Virus record (IMG/VR): IMGVR_UViG_3300037041_000549
Location: 1 to 23,104 of that record
Reading direction: 5' to 3' (one strand)
Length of the DNA stretch: 23,104 nucleotides
Source of the DNA: a virus
Within the stretch, counting starts at the first letter, position 1. Each line of letters begins with the position of its first letter. Shown in pieces: positions 1,238 to 23,104 of this stretch. A model generated the notes under the pieces. That model saw only the letters and a program-made list of their open reading frames with translations, was not told the DNA's origin and did no database searches. Position numbers and translations under genes: made by a program.

Positions 1238-2643
1238 CAGTACGCCAGCCCTTCGGCAGTGACTTCAAGGCGCAGGAAAGCCACATGCGCGTCACTATCG
1301 CCACGGAACCGCTGCATTCTCATGTTCCGCATAGACCCCATGCGGAACCACACCAAGCGTTTGTTGGTCTGGCCGATGCTGCCGACGCGGATACTCTGCT
1401 CTTGGCTCCACGTCAGGCCATCGAGCGAGTAGCTGGTGGCGATGAAAGGATCTTGCCCCAGCGCCACGCGACCCGGCAGGGCCACAAGCTCCATCTGATT
1501 GATGATGGTGCCGAGGCTGTTGTTGTAAATGATGATCGTGCCGAACTCCCAGCGTACCTTCTCGCCCCAATGCGTGCCGATGGTGTCCACGGTGCGACCG
1601 ATGGTCGTGGAGGTCGGATCTTCGACGTTCCAGCGGTCGTAACACCAGACATAGCTCTCGGCCTTGAACCGGGCGATACCTTGAATGGCTGTCACCATCT
1701 TGAACCATATCGGCTGGCCCAACACCTCGGAGGCGGCAGCGTCGAACACCAGCGTTTGGTCTGGAAGGTGGAACATCAGATGTCGGTGCGCCCGGTCGTT
1801 GCGGGCCTCCAGCAGACAGCCGGCCAGCGTGGCTTCACCGTAGCCTAGCAGGATCTCGTCGATTTCCTGCGTGCTGATCTTCTGCGTGTTGGCGTTCTGC
1901 GCGACGTATATGCCTGGTGCTTCATTGCGGCCGCCACCAACAAACGCGATAGCATCGAGGAACACGCAGCAGGTATGCGTGCCGATAGTGCCTTTCTGTA
2001 TCTGCGCGCCGTCCACCGGCTGGAACGGAAACTGTAGGGTACTGCCGACGTTCTCAAACACCTCGATGGTGTAACGGTTGAGCGCGTTGGCTTCGTTACG
2101 GATCTTGAGCAGTGCCTTGATAGGATCAGGATCAAGCTCGTTTGACGCATAGGCGAACGGCAACACGTTCAGCGGGTTCAGGATGTCAGTAACGATAAGG
2201 AACTGGCCATCAGTCGTCATGAAATAGCCGTCGATCCAGATGACATCGAGGACGGTGCCGATGTTCGGGTCTGTTACCTGCGTGAGCGTTGTTCCGTCCC
2301 AGTAGAACAGCTTGCCACCAGACGCGATAGCAAGGCGGTCGAACGAGTAGGTCATCGTGACATAGCCGCTACCGCCAACGTCGCCCAGAACGGAAACAGA
2401 GCCGTCCTGCGCGATGCTTACGAGCTTTGTCCCCATGACGCGATACAGCACATCATTCCAACTGATTCCACCGCGCCCAATGCCTGGGCCAGTGCCGTAG
2501 CTCACCAGTCCATCCGTCGGCCTCAGAAACTCATTCGACACGCCGCTTTGCTTTGGCACCGGCATCATGTTGACCGGGTAGCTCGTCCGCAGGTCCGGGC
2601 CGTTGTCGCTGTAGATGCCGGATACAATCGGTATTTGTGGCAT
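1237..2643 (-). CDS. P22 gp10-like packaged DNA stabilisation (tail hub) protein
   Basis: The 468-residue product aligns by eye along its length with P22 gp10 (about 472 residues). It has the N-terminal PVNMMPVPKQSG followed by a short Gly/Pro segment, the VGGSGYVTMTYSFDRLAIA-type blade, and late landmarks QIQKGTIGTHTC, GIYVAQNANTQKI, HLMFHLPDQTLVFDAA and RLVWFRMG. In P22, gp10 forms the hexameric hub below gp4, closes the portal after packaging and links it to the tail needle and tailspikes. The upstream Lys-rich gene ends just before it, with the stop inside the AGGTGA Shine-Dalgarno. A gp4-like gene lies upstream in the same operon, as expected. No truncation or frameshift is seen. Confidence 0.93.
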   Translation of the reverse strand: MPQIPIVSGIYSDNGPDLRTSYPVNMMPVPKQSGVSNEFLRPTDGLVSYGTGPGIGRGGISWNDVLYRVMGTKLVSIAQDGSVSVLGDVGGSGYVTMTYSFDRLAIASGGKLFYWDGTTLTQVTDPNIGTVLDVIWIDGYFMTTDGQFLIVTDILNPLNVLPFAYASNELDPDPIKALLKIRNEANALNRYTIEVFENVGSTLQFPFQPVDGAQIQKGTIGTHTCCVFLDAIAFVGGGRNEAPGIYVAQNANTQKISTQEIDEILLGYGEATLAGCLLEARNDRAHRHLMFHLPDQTLVFDAAASEVLGQPIWFKMVTAIQGIARFKAESYVWCYDRWNVEDPTSTTIGRTVDTIGTHWGEKVRWEFGTIIIYNNSLGTIINQMELVALPGRVALGQDPFIATSYSLDGLTWSQEQSIRVGSIGQTNKRLVWFRMGSMRNMRMQRFRGDSDAHVAFLRLEVTAEGLAY

Positions 2644-2646
2644 GGT

Positions 2647-3042
2647 TCACCTGTATCGGGCTGTTTTCTTTGCAATCTTCTTGGGCTGCTTGGACACCTG
2701 CTTGCCGGCCTTGGTGGCCTCGCGCTTGGCCCGCGTCGTGGCAGCGTACTCCTGTGAACTCAGCGCCTCGCGGGCAGCCTTTGGCAAGTAGCGCTCGCCT
2801 GTGGCCTTTGGGCCTTGCGTTGATGGCTTGCCAGACTTTGTTCCCCATTCCTCGCCGGTCCACTTGCTTAGCGACTTTTGCGCTTTCGTCTTGCCGCCAG
2901 TGTATCCACCGCCAGCCTTCTCATACTCCTGCGCCACCAGCTGGGCCTTGCGGGCAGACCACTGCCCTGCTTTGCCGCCCTTGGTGCCGGCCATGACGCG
3001 CTTCTTGATGCGCTCTCGCAGTGCGTTGTCGGTGTAGGCCAT
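2647..3042 (-). CDS. Lys-rich small phage protein, DUF5872-like (131 aa from ATG)
   Basis: I place the start at the ATG at 3042, which overlaps the TAA of the upstream gene (TAATG). A GTG six bases earlier would add two residues but is less convincing. The protein is very basic. It begins AYTDNALRERIKKRVMAG and contains the conserved-looking block KWTGEEWGTKSGKPSTQG, then ATGERYLPKAAREAL, and a Lys/Arg-rich tail (KQVSKQPKKIAKKTARYR). From memory this block is the signature of a family of unknown function (DUF5872) shared by phages and some large eukaryotic viruses; that assignment was not searched. Its place among capsid and neck genes and its charge suggest a virion protein that contacts packaged DNA, which is inference. 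Confidence 0.8.
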   Translation of the reverse strand: MAYTDNALRERIKKRVMAGTKGGKAGQWSARKAQLVAQEYEKAGGGYTGGKTKAQKSLSKWTGEEWGTKSGKPSTQGPKATGERYLPKAAREALSSQEYAATTRAKREATKAGKQVSKQPKKIAKKTARYR

Positions 3043-3332
3043 TACCACTTCACCTTGTCGGCCCAGTAGGCGGCGCTCATCTTTCCTTTGCTGATGTTCT
3101 TGGCATGGCGAGACTTGAAAGACTCGCGCTTTTGCTTCATGCGCTCAGATTCACCAGCTTTTGGTTTGCCTGCCGTTTCTGCGCCTTGCTCGCCAAAGCG
3201 AATAGTCTTTATCTTGTCGCCTTCTTTGGCGACCACGATATGCGACTTTTTCGGATGGCCCGGCGTGCGCTTCGGCTTGTTGTAGCCTGAAACGCCAGCG
3301 CGAGCGAGACGCGGATCTTTTTTGGTAGGCAT
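3042..3332 (-). CDS. Lys-rich small phage protein, DUF6321-like (96 aa)
   Basis: A short basic protein beginning MPTKKDPRLARAGVSGYNKPKRTP. A HPKKSHIVVAKEGDKIKTIRFGEQG-type segment is followed by GKPKAGESERMKQKRESFKSRHAK and the end SAAYWADKVKW. A good Shine-Dalgarno (GAGGG) precedes the ATG. From memory this is a compact family of unknown function found in phages, probably DUF6321, often next to the DUF5872-like gene as here. The segment around IRFGEQGAETAG looks like a small beta domain flanked by basic tails. There is no catalytic or metal-binding pattern. It is coupled to the downstream Lys-rich gene by a TAATG overlap. A structural or DNA-binding role in the head is inferred from charge and location only. 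Confidence 0.8.
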   Translation of the reverse strand: MPTKKDPRLARAGVSGYNKPKRTPGHPKKSHIVVAKEGDKIKTIRFGEQGAETAGKPKAGESERMKQKRESFKSRHAKNISKGKMSAAYWADKVKW

Positions 3333-3342
3333 TGGATGGCCC

Positions 3343-3798
3343 TCAGCCGACGCGGTACCAGCTGTTGGTTGCTTGGTAGAACCGGAACTTCACGAAGTCG
3401 CCAGCCGCCAGCACCAGCACGTTACCGTAGATGTTCGCTGCACCGTTGGGCGCGAGCGTAAATCCGGCTATCTGCTGCGTGGTCGTGATCAGCACCTCGG
3501 TGCCGTCTGGCGTGCCGGTGTTCAGTGGCAGCGTGACAGTGCCAGTCGCCAACGCACCAGCAGGTTGTATCAAGATCCACTGAGCCTGTGAGACTGGCGA
3601 AGGCACAGCGTAGTTAAAGCCTGTTCCCGGTGTGACAAGCGTGGTCGCTACGGTAGGCGCTGCGAAAGTCTGCTGGAAGTATTGCAGCAGTGCGCTGATT
3701 GGCAGGCGGCGAGCGTCGCCGTTGTTCGGCGTGTAGATCGGCAACTGGTCGCCAGCGCTGACTTGATTGAGTAATGGGAGCTGATTGATATACGGCAT
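3343..3798 (-). CDS. Small fibre-like or decoration virion protein (151 aa)
   Basis: The N-terminus (residues 1-45: INQLPLLNQVSAGDQLPIYTPNNGDARRLPISALLQYFQ) resembles the short attachment module at the start of many phage head- and tail-fibre proteins, where a target-binding strand pair is followed by an amphipathic helix. The rest is beta-rich (TVTLPLNTGTPDGTEVLI, then NGAANIYGNVLVL) and ends in KFRFYQATNSWYRVG. That ending is distantly like the C-terminus of the 200-residue protein encoded just after the coat gene. The gene sits directly after the gp4-like neck gene with a TGAGG ribosome site. It is probably a surface or neck-associated component. Exact location and ligand cannot be read from sequence. 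Confidence 0.7.
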   Translation of the reverse strand: MPYINQLPLLNQVSAGDQLPIYTPNNGDARRLPISALLQYFQQTFAAPTVATTLVTPGTGFNYAVPSPVSQAQWILIQPAGALATGTVTLPLNTGTPDGTEVLITTTQQIAGFTLAPNGAANIYGNVLVLAAGDFVKFRFYQATNSWYRVG

Positions 3799-16259: not shown

Positions 16260-16651
16260 AGTGTGGACTTGTGTAGCTTAAAGCCGGGCTGGCTTTCATA
16301 GCGCTGGATGTCTGCCAGAGAGTATAGCCTTTCTGTGCCTTGCATGATGTACATGAGTGTCGGCCACTTGCTTAGGATTGATGGCATGGTCCTGACCGAC
16401 ACGTCCCATCGGTCGGCGATGTCCTTCATGCTGATCAGTTCCATCTCGCCGGCCCTCATCTTGCCGAGCTGGGCCTCCTTGCTGATGGTCGAGGGTATGG
16501 TCTTAATTGACCCCCCTTGCGCCAGGAAGATCTCCACCGCCGACAGGATCTCCTGCCGCTCGGCTTCCTTCTGCCTGATGGCCGTCTGCGTCGATGCCGG
16601 CCGGCCCAATCTGGTATCTGCGTGAAGGTCAACAGTGCCCCAACTGCTCAT
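16256..16651 (-). CDS. Helix-turn-helix-like phage protein (131 aa)
   Basis: First gene of the leftward late operon. It is preceded by an AGGGGG ribosome site eight bases before the ATG and by the repeat-rich non-coding region. The N-terminal half is helical (RQKEAERQEILSAVEIFLA). The C-terminal half holds a likely winged-helix/MerR-like element: ISMKDIADRWDVSVRTMPS, then a short wing-like segment MQGTERLYSLADIQRYE. This pattern, ADRWxVSxxTxxx followed by a Y(S/R)xADIxxYE ending, is typical of small DNA-binding proteins related to excisionases and phage regulators. It could be a late activator or a packaging-site recogniser. The stop overlaps the small membrane gene's ATG. Function is inferred only. 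Confidence 0.65.
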   Translation of the reverse strand: MSSWGTVDLHADTRLGRPASTQTAIRQKEAERQEILSAVEIFLAQGGSIKTIPSTISKEAQLGKMRAGEMELISMKDIADRWDVSVRTMPSILSKWPTLMYIMQGTERLYSLADIQRYESQPGFKLHKSTL

Positions 16652-16700
16652 CGTTTCATCCCCCTAAAATCTGTTTTTGTTCATCCGGCAGATACCGCCT

Positions 16701-16966
16701 GTTACCCTTCTCATGGGTAACGGCCAACCCCAATTACCACGCGGGTTTCCGCCCTTGTTACCGCTGTTACCCTTCTTTTTCTATTGTTTACCCCTGATTT
16801 TATAAATAGTCCGGTCCCCCTAAATTTCACTCTATTTTTTTCTAACTAAAGGTAGAAAGAGAAGAAGGGTAACAAGGGTAACATTGTCTGGAGGCCGCGC
16901 CATCCGTGGCTTTAGCCGTTACCCTTCTCCAAAAAAGAAGGGTAACAGAAGGGTAACAAGAGTAAC
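16701..16966. repeat. Iteron-like array of GAAGGGTAAC / GTTACCCTTC
   Basis: Exact 10-base copies of GTTACCCTTC stand at 16701-16710, 16766-16775 and 16918-16927, and of its complement GAAGGGTAAC at 16864-16873, 16937-16946 and 16948-16957. Near-copies (one or two changes) are at 16873-16882 (CAAGGGTAAC) and 16957-16966 (CAAGAGTAAC), with truncated forms at 16715-16721 (GGGTAAC), 16757-16762 (GTTACC) and 16786-16794. Neighbouring copies are spaced 9-11 bases, about one helical turn, so bound proteins would lie on one face. They all lie in the non-coding region. Confidence 0.8.
16918..16946. repeat. Perfect inverted repeat, 10-base arms
   Basis: GTTACCCTTC, nine spacer bases (TCCAAAAAA), then GAAGGGTAAC. 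The arms are exact. In minus-strand RNA it could fold downstream of the primase-helicase stop, but no T tract follows it, so it does not look like an ordinary terminator. As DNA it is a pair of oppositely oriented iterons, suited to a dimeric or replication-initiator protein. Confidence 0.75.
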
Positions 16967-16973
16967 TTTCCCA

Positions 16974-19091
16974 TCAAAACGGCATTTTTGGCCGCCAACC
17001 CTTGACCAACACGCCGTTAACACGCGAAACGCCGCGCTCGTAGCCCAAAGCCTTCAAAACTTTAGCGATCCTTAACTCCTCGCGCCTGCTGATCTGCTTT
17101 TTGTCGAAGTTCAGCGCGTCGATCAGGACCTCCATCGCGCTCAAAATTTTCTTTTCTCGGTTGATCTCACCGCTCAAAATGTCCGTCTCATCGAGCCAGT
17201 TGCTGACCACATCGGCCCATGAATCCTTGATCATGTGGTCTTCGTGAACGTCCTTCGCGAGCCGTTCGGCCTCCCGGAACGCAACTCCAGTGGCCTCAAA
17301 AGACCCCCTAGCCTCGGCCCACAATTGCAGCCTGTCACGCTCAATACCCTCGACATCGGCACCATCCACCTTGACCGGCAACCAGCGCCTATTGCCGGTT
17401 TCATCGGCCAGAAACTCCTCTTGGTTCGTGGTGCCAATAAAGACCAACCGCCTCGGGAACGTGACGGCAAACTCTCGGTATTTGGGAATCCAGTTCTCAT
17501 GCGTCCGGGTGATGAAGGCTTTTATATGCTCCAGCTCTCGGGTGTGCAGCCCGCGCAGCTCTCCGATCTCGGCCACCAGCCGCCCGCGCATCTTGCGGGC
17601 CAGATCGTCCTCGCGCTCGTGGAAAGAGACCTCGGCAAAGAAGTCTGGAGCCGGCGACATGGCCGCAACACCGCTGGACTTTCCAGCGCCCTGCCGGCCA
17701 ACCAGTATGGGCACCATGTCGGCCTTGATGCCTGGAGCCATGACACGCCCCGCCATGGCCGTCCACAGATACCGCGACACCGAGGTAACATACTCGCTCG
17801 CCTCGGCTCCGAAGTAGTCCACGAGAAACCCGTCGATCCTCGGCACGCCATCCCACTGCAAGCCGGACAGCCACTCAATGGCCGAGTCGAAAGGGTTTTC
17901 ATCTGCCACCAGCAAAACCACATCGCGGATCATCTCGCGGCCGATGGGCTTGAAACCATGCTTCTCCAGCCTGATCCGCAGCCTGGAATAGTCGGCATCA
18001 GCAAAGGCCTGCCAGTCTGAAGTCCCCTCGGCCGCGAACATAATCTCGTCACGGAACTGGTCGAACCGGATCTCGATGCCACAGAACGACGGTGCCCGCA
18101 GCGCCACGTTGCAATTCTCCATCGTGGCTTCGATCTTGCCCTTCTTGTCACGTTTGAATTTGAGCGAAACGCTTACATGATCAGCGGGCAATGTCTCACA
18201 AACGAACACGTCGAAGTCCTCGACCTTTACCGGATCTGGGTCGATGAACAGCCCCTGCTCCGAGGCCATCATCCGCAGCGTGCGAGCCGTGGTCACAGCG
18301 CCGCCAGCCTTGCGCTTGAAGCTCTGCCAAGCGTTCCGAACGTCCTCGGCCTTGTACTTGGTGTAACGCAACTCCCCGGCCTCGTCCCTCGATCCGGACC
18401 ACTCGTTAAACAGCCGGAAGCCCTCGCGGCTGCCGCCTGTCTCATGGTGCAGCGCCATGCCGACCGCCAGCCAGTCTTCCCGCGCCGTTGGCGCTGGGTC
18501 CAACACTGACAGGATCTCGCGCAGCTGTTCCTCGGTGTAGCCAAGCGGGTCCTTGCCATCGGTGTCCACCATGGCCGGGCTGTCCTGCATCAGCTCGGCA
18601 GCCTCCACGGGCAGCATCGGCCATGCCTCCATGAAGACCGCCTCAGGCATCCCCAAAAGCGTCATGTCCTCATACCCTTCGCCGGTGCAGATCCAACCCT
18701 TGCCATGCGTGCGCGTGTCGAGCCCAGGCACACCAAGCACCGACGAGCCTTGCCGCACCTCGGTACCGTCTGGAAGCCGGAAACAGTAATGCTCGCCACC
18801 GGAGACGGTGCGCTGGATCAGCGCGTCATCCCATGGCAGGGCAACGCCCAGCGCAGCCTCGACAGCCTCGCGGGTGACGCCCTTGTAAGTATCGAGGTCG
18901 ATAAAGACGTGACCGGCAGGAACGCCGACGCCTACGTTGTTCGAGAACGCCACCTCGTCGAGCGTGGCCATGTGGGTTTGCCAGCCCCTGACGGCGGGCT
19001 TCTTCTCAGGCTTGTCCTTGCCCTTGGTGTGGATCAGATTGACCGGAAAGATATTAAAGACGTGTGACACCGTGGTACGTTCAGAATTCAT
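16974..19091 (-). CDS. Primase-polymerase / VapE-like helicase replication protein (705 aa)
   Basis: The N-terminus is an archaeo-eukaryotic-type (Prim-Pol) primase. NVGVGVPAGHVFIDLD gives the DxD motif (D65, D67); SGGEHYCF gives the SxGxH motif (S97, H101); GLDTRTHGKGW gives the third acidic residue (D125). A PriCT-2-like linker domain (about 185-265, YTEEQLREILSVLDPAP and EDWLAVGMALHHETGG) follows. The C-terminal half (about 390-620) is a VirE/VapE-type superfamily 3 helicase: NPFDSAIEWLSGLQWDG, Walker A GRQGAGKS (465-472), AEIGELRGL and FIGTTNQEEFLADETGNRRW. The protein can both prime and unwind, so it is the probable initiator. It lies leftward, beside the iteron region, next to the Cro-like gene. 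Its ribosome site is poorly placed (AAGG, 14 bases). Confidence 0.93.
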   Translation of the reverse strand: MNSERTTVSHVFNIFPVNLIHTKGKDKPEKKPAVRGWQTHMATLDEVAFSNNVGVGVPAGHVFIDLDTYKGVTREAVEAALGVALPWDDALIQRTVSGGEHYCFRLPDGTEVRQGSSVLGVPGLDTRTHGKGWICTGEGYEDMTLLGMPEAVFMEAWPMLPVEAAELMQDSPAMVDTDGKDPLGYTEEQLREILSVLDPAPTAREDWLAVGMALHHETGGSREGFRLFNEWSGSRDEAGELRYTKYKAEDVRNAWQSFKRKAGGAVTTARTLRMMASEQGLFIDPDPVKVEDFDVFVCETLPADHVSVSLKFKRDKKGKIEATMENCNVALRAPSFCGIEIRFDQFRDEIMFAAEGTSDWQAFADADYSRLRIRLEKHGFKPIGREMIRDVVLLVADENPFDSAIEWLSGLQWDGVPRIDGFLVDYFGAEASEYVTSVSRYLWTAMAGRVMAPGIKADMVPILVGRQGAGKSSGVAAMSPAPDFFAEVSFHEREDDLARKMRGRLVAEIGELRGLHTRELEHIKAFITRTHENWIPKYREFAVTFPRRLVFIGTTNQEEFLADETGNRRWLPVKVDGADVEGIERDRLQLWAEARGSFEATGVAFREAERLAKDVHEDHMIKDSWADVVSNWLDETDILSGEINREKKILSAMEVLIDALNFDKKQISRREELRIAKVLKALGYERGVSRVNGVLVKGWRPKMPF

Positions 19092-21590: not shown

Positions 21591-23104
21591 ATGCTCATCA
21601 TCGACACCGAGATTTACTCGGACTATTTCCTTGTCTCCGCGCTCAACACCGAGACGGGCAAAATCACGCACATCGAGGCCTTCGACGGCCAGCCGATCAA
21701 CAAACCACGCCTCCGCAAGCTCATGGTCGAGTACGTCACGATGAGTTTCAACGGCAATCACTTCGACCTGCCACTGCTTGCCGCTGCTGTCAACGCTGGG
21801 TACAGCATCGCCCAGCTCAAGGCACTGGCCGACAAGATCATCAAGTCCACCGAGTCGATCTGGCGCATCCTCAAGGCGCATGAGCTGCGCGTACCGGACT
21901 GGGATCACATCGACCTGATCGAAGTCGCACCAGGTCAGTCCAGTCTCAAAATCTACGGCGGCCGGCTCAACGCCCCGAAGATGCAAGACCTGCCCATTGA
22001 GCCGGACGCACGCATCGCGCCCGAGCAGCGCCAGATCGTGCGGGAATACTGCGAGAACGACCTGCACACCACGCACCTGCTGTACAAGGCGCTCAAGGCT
22101 CAGATCGACCTGCGCGTGGATATGGGCGCACAGTACGGCATGGACTTTCGCAGCCTCTCCGACGCGCAGATTGCCGAGAAGCTAATCACGCATGAAATGC
22201 AAAAGATCACCGGCAAGGAGTACCGCAAGCCCGAGGTTAAGGACGGCTTTGCGTTCAAGTACCGTGACCCGAAGATCATCACGTTCCAGACGCAGGACTT
22301 GCAGGAGCGCTTCGGCCGCCTGCTGGCCGAGCGCTGGCAACTGGGGCCGAACGGCTCCGTCCAGATGCCGGCGTGGCTGAAAGAGTCGCGCATCAGGATC
22401 GGGCAGGCCGACTACCAGATGGGCATTGGCGGCCTGCACTCTTGCGAGCAACGCCAGTGCATCCGGGCCGATGGCGGCATGGTGCTGGCAGACTATGACG
22501 TGGCCTCCTACTATCCCTCGATCATCATGCAGCAACAGCTCGCGCCCAACGCCTTCGGCAAGCCGTTTTTGACGCTGTACCAGTCCCTGATCCGTCGCCG
22601 CCTGGAAGCGAAGCGCTCCGGCGATAAGGTCACGGCCGACACGCTCAAGATCACGCTCAACGGCAGCTTCGGCAAGTTTGGTAGCAAATACTCGACGCTC
22701 TACGCGCCCGAACTGCTGATCCAGACGACGATCACCGGGCAGCTCGCGCTGCTCATGCTGATCGAACGGCTGGAGAGTGCAGGCGTGCGCGTCGTGAGTG
22801 CCAACACTGACGGCATTGTGGTCTACCACAGCGAGACGCAATTTGACGCGGTGGACGAGATCACGTTCGACTGGATGCTGGACACCAGTTACCAGTTGGA
22901 GCGCACCGCGTACAGCGTCATCGCCAGCCGCGACGTGAACAACTACGTTGCCGTGAGGACTGACGGAAAGATCAAGGGCAAAGGCATCTTCGCGCCCGCC
23001 AGCCTTGCCAAAAACCCAGACGGCCAGATCATCTACACCGCCGTGGCGCAGCACATCGCCAAGGGTACGCCCATCGAGGACACGATCCACGGCAGTGTAG
23101 ATGA
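21591..23104 (+). CDS. Family B DNA polymerase with 3'-5' exonuclease (partial, cut at right edge)
   Basis: An open frame of 504 codons from ATG 21591 runs off the window. The exonuclease motifs are all present: ExoI D5-x-E7 (IDTEIYS), ExoII N54/D59 (FNGNHFDLP) and ExoIII Y153-x3-D157 (YCEND). Polymerase motif A is DVASYYPSII (D303), the B-family hallmark DxxSxYPS. Motif B is KITLNGSFGK (K353). Motif C is ANTDGIV (D407), with Asn in place of the first Asp of the usual DTD. The distance from motif A to B is only about 50 residues, against roughly 130-150 in RB69 or phi29 polymerases, so the fingers are very short. It follows the SSB gene and a partial terminator, and has AGAGG as ribosome site. 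It copies the phage genome with proofreading. Confidence 0.92.
   Translation, partial: MLIIDTEIYSDYFLVSALNTETGKITHIEAFDGQPINKPRLRKLMVEYVTMSFNGNHFDLPLLAAAVNAGYSIAQLKALADKIIKSTESIWRILKAHELRVPDWDHIDLIEVAPGQSSLKIYGGRLNAPKMQDLPIEPDARIAPEQRQIVREYCENDLHTTHLLYKALKAQIDLRVDMGAQYGMDFRSLSDAQIAEKLITHEMQKITGKEYRKPEVKDGFAFKYRDPKIITFQTQDLQERFGRLLAERWQLGPNGSVQMPAWLKESRIRIGQADYQMGIGGLHSCEQRQCIRADGGMVLADYDVASYYPSIIMQQQLAPNAFGKPFLTLYQSLIRRRLEAKRSGDKVTADTLKITLNGSFGKFGSKYSTLYAPELLIQTTITGQLALLMLIERLESAGVRVVSANTDGIVVYHSETQFDAVDEITFDWMLDTSYQLERTAYSVIASRDVNNYVAVRTDGKIKGKGIFAPASLAKNPDGQIIYTAVAQHIAKGTPIEDTIHGSVD

Follow-up and report, generated by a model that had tools for sequence, protein, structure and literature searches.

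The window, that is, the whole stretch of DNA analysed here, comprises the 23,104 bases of the viral contig IMGVR_UViG_3300037041_000549, a record that is itself a fragment. Its minus-strand left arm encodes a P22-like coat and portal, a phage stabilisation protein and both terminase subunits, and its plus-strand right end encodes a DUF2800 exonuclease, an Enc34-type single-stranded DNA-binding protein and a DNA polymerase. The polymerase gene (21591-23102, plus strand) gave a strong match to phrog_1252 (1.6e-156) and only a marginal one to Pfam DNA_pol_B_2; judging from these matches, the phage, which also has Prim-Pol/VapE, encodes a divergent DNA polymerase of phage type. Between the two arms, on the minus strand, lie the gene for the Cro-like protein P0003 and that for the 705-residue Prim-Pol/PriCT_2/VapE primase-helicase P0001 (16974-19091), hereafter VapE, the proposed initiator. 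A gap of 322 bp separates the end of the VapE gene at 16974 from the start of the next minus-strand gene, P0002, at 16651, and the repeat array in this gap is thus located 3' of VapE. P0002 (16256-16651, minus strand, 131 residues) matched the RNA-polymerase-binding domain of SutA over a short stretch, slightly above the Pfam cut-off (E 3.6e-7), and occupies the slot of antiterminator Q in enterobacterial relatives; it is possibly a phage late-transcription factor.

The assignment of a Prim-Pol/VapE helicase next to the gap, made in an earlier note on the sequence alone, was borne out by Pfam matches of P0001 to VapE (2.2e-59), PriCT_2 (1.2e-14) and Prim-Pol (2.9e-8). The helicase part matched PDB 7pds, the PriRep1 protein of SaPI, in a sequence-profile comparison (E 7.9e-46), and PriRep1 was also the best fold match of P0001 (E 4.2e-18), making P0001 a homologue of SaPI Rep and an AAA+ helicase with an associated primase. 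Residues 620-705 (16977-17234, minus strand) were modelled by AlphaFold2 (pLDDT 90.9) with helices at 652-659 and 669-681 and a beta-hairpin at 684-691/694-701, and the same elements appeared in a larger model. The VapE C-terminus is therefore predicted to be a winged-helix-like DNA-binding domain, with the residues that covary with the repeats, as described below, placed on the hairpin. The isolated 620-705 domain gave no significant fold match, known winged helices matching it weakly, and its sequence gave no significant match against the PDB.

In the gap, a repeat search revealed an array of short iterons on both strands. As the earlier note had claimed for these non-coding bases, the decamer GAAGGGTAAC occurs in six exact copies accompanied by near-copies; the exact copies, three per strand, all lie within 16701-16957, and none was found elsewhere in the 23,104-base record, so that the decamer is indeed confined to this locus. 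The VapE-distal block (16700-16775) comprises copies of GAAGGGTAACA at 16700-16710 and 16765-16775 (both minus strand), CATGGGTAACG at 16712-16722 (plus) and CAGCGGTAACA at 16756-16766 (minus), with a weak copy just beyond it at 16786-16796 (minus). The VapE-proximal block (16864-16967) comprises plus-strand copies at 16864-16874, 16873-16883 (a 9-bp step), 16937-16947, 16948-16958 and 16957-16967 (CAAGAGTAACT) and a minus-strand copy at 16917-16927; the copies starting at 16712, 16756, 16786, 16873 and 16957 are degenerate. Many neighbouring copy starts are 9-12 bp apart (16700/16712, 16756/16765, 16864/16873 and 16937/16948/16957), close to the 9-11 bases noted earlier. The two blocks enclose, as also proposed, an AT-rich core (16776-16863, 69% AT), a candidate DNA-unwinding element; its portion at 16795-16860 has 70% AT as against 43% for the window and stands at the 99.7th percentile of 66-bp stretches. 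A switch in GC skew, which the note had suggested looking for, was not clearly discernible at the array in this fragmentary record.

The statistical weight of the repeats was assessed by shuffling. With up to two mismatches, GAAGGGTAAC has 22 matches in the record, 9 of them in the gap 3' of VapE, and this total was reached in none of 100 dinucleotide shuffles (mean 12.3, largest 21). No other 266-bp stretch of the record away from the array holds an identical decamer six times. Since Markov shuffles of the gap nevertheless yielded some decamer in at least five copies in 3 of 300 cases, owing to low-complexity runs, the copy count by itself is unusual rather than impossible, and the reality of the array is settled by its conservation in relatives.

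Comparison of the gap DNA with 50,697 phage records gave no match, as is expected if the repeated word changes, and comparison therefore had to be anchored on the protein. IMG/VR was searched for relatives of VapE, which yielded 80 loci; the 78 with downstream sequence formed the first pass, and when viral contigs were scanned again with different VapE queries, most of the hits were contigs already found. In all 78, a repeat array stronger than its own shuffled control was found within the first ~280 bp past the VapE stop. The usual layout was an inverted pair followed by three copies at 9-bp steps, the AT core and an opposite-orientation triplet at 9-10-bp steps. Exact word copies averaged 4.9 in the 390-bp array versus 0.36 in the remaining ~10.3 kb, and the core was richer in AT than its own locus in 77 of 78 loci. 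The expectation of conservation in relatives thus held for the array, its place and its layout but not for the repeated word, of which 27 different core forms were counted, including GTGGTTCCA, GTTGGTACA, GTGGTAACA, AGGTTGTCT, AGGTGGTCT, GTGGGGACA and AACGGTAGC. The AT-core sequence was retained between relatives whose iterons differ.

Arrays were likewise present in the named phages APSE-1 (12 copies), Yersinia YeP5, Acidovorax ACF1, Caulobacter Jess A and Kosakonia Kc259. That of APSE-1, from the aphid symbiont Hamiltonella (L505, 2965-3260), consists of AGGTTGTTAC copies 3' of P3 and is unannotated as an origin. Among 5,426 complete genomes of E. coli, 101 contained VapE prophages of the group, the array being present in the one examined. 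Several relatives from Burkholderiales (30-48% identity) had weak arrays, and no clear array was seen 3' of VapE in Vibrio VP16T (29% identity). In one contig (L056, IMGVR_UViG_2876030618_000004), the VapE frame is broken before the wing, being a pseudogene or a sequencing error, and the array remains further on.

To relate word to protein, all loci were pooled into 115 distinct combinations of VapE tail and array; 97 of these had sufficient VapE sequence, and in them the ~400 aligned VapE columns were compared one by one with the word. Wing positions +1 to +15 correspond to window residues 685-699 (ERGVSRVNGVLVKGW), whose codons lie at 16995-17039 on the minus strand. The ten columns carrying the most information on the word over shuffles (+11, +12, +4, +16, +18, +15, +14, +13, +5 and +3, in that order) were all situated at the extreme C-terminus, eight of them within the predicted beta-wing. 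Positions +16 and +18 were rejected as specificity residues, being probable artefacts, because in several phages the VapE coding sequence runs into the first iterons, which can thereby encode them; of the loci examined for this, the KKCKVW group and L021 have a first iteron that touches the codon for the aromatic residue. When VapE relatedness was removed, word distance still followed wing distance (partial Mantel r 0.68, reached in 0 of 999 permutations, the largest being 0.10), whereas given the wing, the correlation with VapE backbone relatedness was r 0.09. Sequence comparison thus indicates that the VapE C-terminus and the array evolve together.

A residue-base table built on 55 distinct wings resolved this relation further. 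At iteron position 5, the base was G with W at +15 (31/31) and with KAF (4/4), and T with R[IV]F (14/14); R at +4 accompanied C at position 8 (10/10). At position 9, the base was A where +11 is L, V or M (22/22) and G where +11 is N (3/3). The exceptions were APSE-1, examined afterwards, which pairs W with T, and Y, which pairs with T, C, G or A. Most loci are from Enterobacterales and many are near-identical, so that counting loci overstates independence. The word registers of L007 and L009 were set by hand, and the F of L009, its register being uncertain, was not counted as support. On a tree built without the wing, the aromatic state changed 26 times and the base-5 state 25 times; the supported independent pairs changed in the same direction in 5.2 of 6 cases and in the opposite direction in none, with a sign test that was borderline for so few pairs (median p 0.06). 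Leave-one-out prediction from the nearest wing recovered 86% of the bases, and the exact word in 26 of 55 cases, compared with 57% of bases from random wings, and therefore the correspondence is real, yet not a complete dictionary.

Natural swaps displayed the same relation in closely related genomes. In the pair L022/L059, VapE is 99.7% identical over the 394 residues before the wing and the DNA is then identical up to the ...GGK codons; past these, KCKVW is replaced by MTRIF and every iteron is changed from the GTGGTTCCA type to the GTTGGTACA type, with the AT core retained and identity returning beyond the array in the distal flank. In the pair L050/L077, VapE is 100% identical before the wing, and wing and iterons differ in the same manner. 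Many wing and word changes may travel as recombined cassettes. Over the last ~35 VapE bases of L022/L059, the terminal residues (such as EPLEPRGTT and EAVSQPVPTSK) are in part dictated by the repeats of the putative origin.

Within the window's own group, L010 has the word of the window. In L007 and L008, whose VapE C-terminal parts are 88% and 79% identical to that of the window, GAAGGGTAAC is absent, which the earlier note would have taken as counting against an origin. The decamer is indeed missing there, but the array persists with the word GAACGGTAGC at nearly every position, including most positions of the distal block, and reliance on the decamer would have been misleading. Nearly every site had changed from GAAGGGTAACA to GAACGGTAGCA, the core motif GTAAACAATAGAAAAAG being unchanged, and the iteron change from A to G at position 9 is accompanied by L to N at wing position +11, in agreement with the residue-base table, to which both loci contribute.

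Among known systems, phage P4 combines primase, helicase and origin binding in its alpha protein, which has a C-terminal winged-helix origin-binding domain (PDB 1ka8). The P4 origin consists of short iterons, and P4 additionally needs a second site, crr. The window resembles this system in having primase and helicase in one protein together with short iterons, and origin binding by that same protein is proposed here from sequence. It differs in that no second, crr-like iteron cluster was seen in the 23.1-kb record, itself a fragment, and in that the fold similarity of the C-terminal domain to 1ka8 is weak (rank 49, probability 0.12), with no sequence match.

The similarity to satellite origins is closer. 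The origins of SaPIs and Gram-negative PICIs follow rep directly on its 3' side, and in them an AT-rich region is flanked by two sets of iterons; pri-rep-ori replicates when cloned, and the rep-ori segment of EcCICFT073 maintains a plasmid (PMC6092414). With these origins (SaPIbov1, SaPI1 and EcCICFT073) the window shares the position just past the 3' end of the initiator gene, be it VapE-type or pri-rep, the two iteron sets flanking an AT-rich region, and an AAA+ helicase initiator with its primase fused or nearby. In SaPI Rep, the C-terminal domain recognises the downstream origin (PMC7581432); the predicted C-terminal wing of VapE, which covaries strongly with the word, may have the same role here. 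The window differs in that its putative origin sits in a tailed phage encoding terminase and P22-like portal and coat itself, and in having an identifiable wing that tracks the ~10-bp iteron word. A PICI, by contrast, is a satellite that depends on a helper phage for virion proteins; the element in the window is a phage and no PICI. The window array would thus be a SaPI/PICI-type origin in a new setting, namely complete phages, which PMC6092414 did not list. In SCCmec, the direct repeats bound by the C-terminal domain of the helicase Cch2 directly follow the Cch2 gene (PMC7581432), a likeness in position, but that putative origin has only three iterons (AAGTG), and Cch2 has an unfused primase and belongs to another helicase subfamily.

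The nearest published parallel to the covariation is at the level of modules: in the Vibrio cholerae satellite PLE, the DNA-binding domain of RepA and the ori covary (PMC8263062), as the predicted DNA-binding wing and the array do here. RepA differs in belonging to the RepA_N family, in having no helicase and in covarying as a whole domain, and no residue-level correspondence was found in the passages of that report consulted. For VapE initiators, too, no residue-to-base correspondence was found in the literature searched, a set with few subscription journals. The correspondence between wing and iteron is the apparently novel, directly testable part of the present analysis.

The VapE/array module was also found on plasmids. 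In the 12,869-bp circular Serratia plasmid NZ_OX291476.1 (L512), VapE is the only recognisable replication protein, as judged from annotation together with Pfam or NCBIfam on 12 of the 16 listed genes, and a 13-copy GGTGGAAC array lies 3' of it around an AT-rich core (1687-3430). Similar small non-mobilizable plasmids with VapE as the sole recognisable Rep occur in Enterobacter and E. coli, and plasmids of this type are possible minimal VapE replicons. The 77-kb circular Enterobacter pE76_003 (CP042502.1, L513), which carries a VapE-array-Q module beside terminase and head genes, is a phage-plasmid listed as a plasmid.

The covariation demonstrates only the joint evolution of the VapE C-terminus and the array, because regulatory binding would produce an identical signal; the array might accordingly serve VapE as a binding site for control of its own operon or of the gene downstream, with replication starting elsewhere. 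We consider this improbable, since the array lies 3' of VapE, away from the VapE promoter, its paired blocks around an AT core resemble functional SaPI/PICI origins, and a small plasmid retains VapE and array as its only recognisable replicon. Still less probable is that the array is an operator or promoter region of the late operon, bound by the HTH-like P0002 or the Cro-like P0003; an operator had been raised as the alternative in the earlier note. Such a control region would fit the division of a replication gene from a possible late regulator by the gap, and the next gene in enterobacterial relatives is often that for antiterminator Q, also a late control point. Homologues of P0002, however, were found at only 4 of ~100 array-bearing loci, all among the closest relatives, and P0002 is therefore not needed for the array, which stays while the downstream gene varies between Q and others; moreover, the word follows the VapE C-terminus independently of VapE relatedness, and no sigma-70-like promoter was found in 16500-17100. 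A role of the repeats as transcription terminators, or as an RNA element of some other kind, is barely credible: an inverted pair at 16918-16946 could fold into an 11-bp stem with a 7-base loop, but no Rfam match was obtained, 16500-17100 contains a single terminator-like site, which is no more than chance would give and is not in the array, and direct 9-bp steps with a concerted word change in all copies are unlike the conservation of RNA structure.

Because the place of the array is constant in the first-pass relatives and its word covaries with the VapE wing, a replication origin is preferred over an operator, and because the window matches the SaPI/PICI layout and a small plasmid has VapE and an array of this kind, it is the best reading overall. 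We put at about 0.87 the probability that the array is a phage replication origin of the SaPI/PICI type with VapE as its initiator, the reading that the earlier note had itself preferred. The conserved position, the layout, the covariation of wing and word, and the homology to the SaPI initiator PriRep1 support this origin. In the proposed mechanism, VapE, made from the gene just upstream, would dock on the iterons through its C-terminal winged-helix-like domain, chiefly via the beta-wing (residues 685-699); two helicase assemblies would form, one per iteron block, the AT core between them would melt to allow loading of the AAA+ rings, and the fused Prim-Pol domain would prime synthesis. We infer the double-ring loading, melting and priming from SaPI and P4 biology.

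Beyond the single locus, VapE initiators probably hold a modular, partly readable DNA-recognition code in the C-terminal beta-wing, in which +4, +11, +12 and +15 set the word, and phages exchange wing and iterons together, in a cassette that sets specificity, spans a few hundred bp and surrounds an unchanged AT core. What drives the change of word is plausibly the avoidance either of cross-talk among co-resident prophages and satellites or of an origin-directed attack such as that of ICP1 on PLE, where an iteron change lets the satellite escape the origin-directed nuclease Odn (PMC8263062). The ~100 loci, with their 27 core words and near-isogenic swap pairs, constitute a natural data set that ties individual residues to individual origin bases and lets small swaps probe how initiators alter specificity yet keep function. 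If the code reading is true, swapping ~5 residues should re-target an initiator to the origin of another phage.
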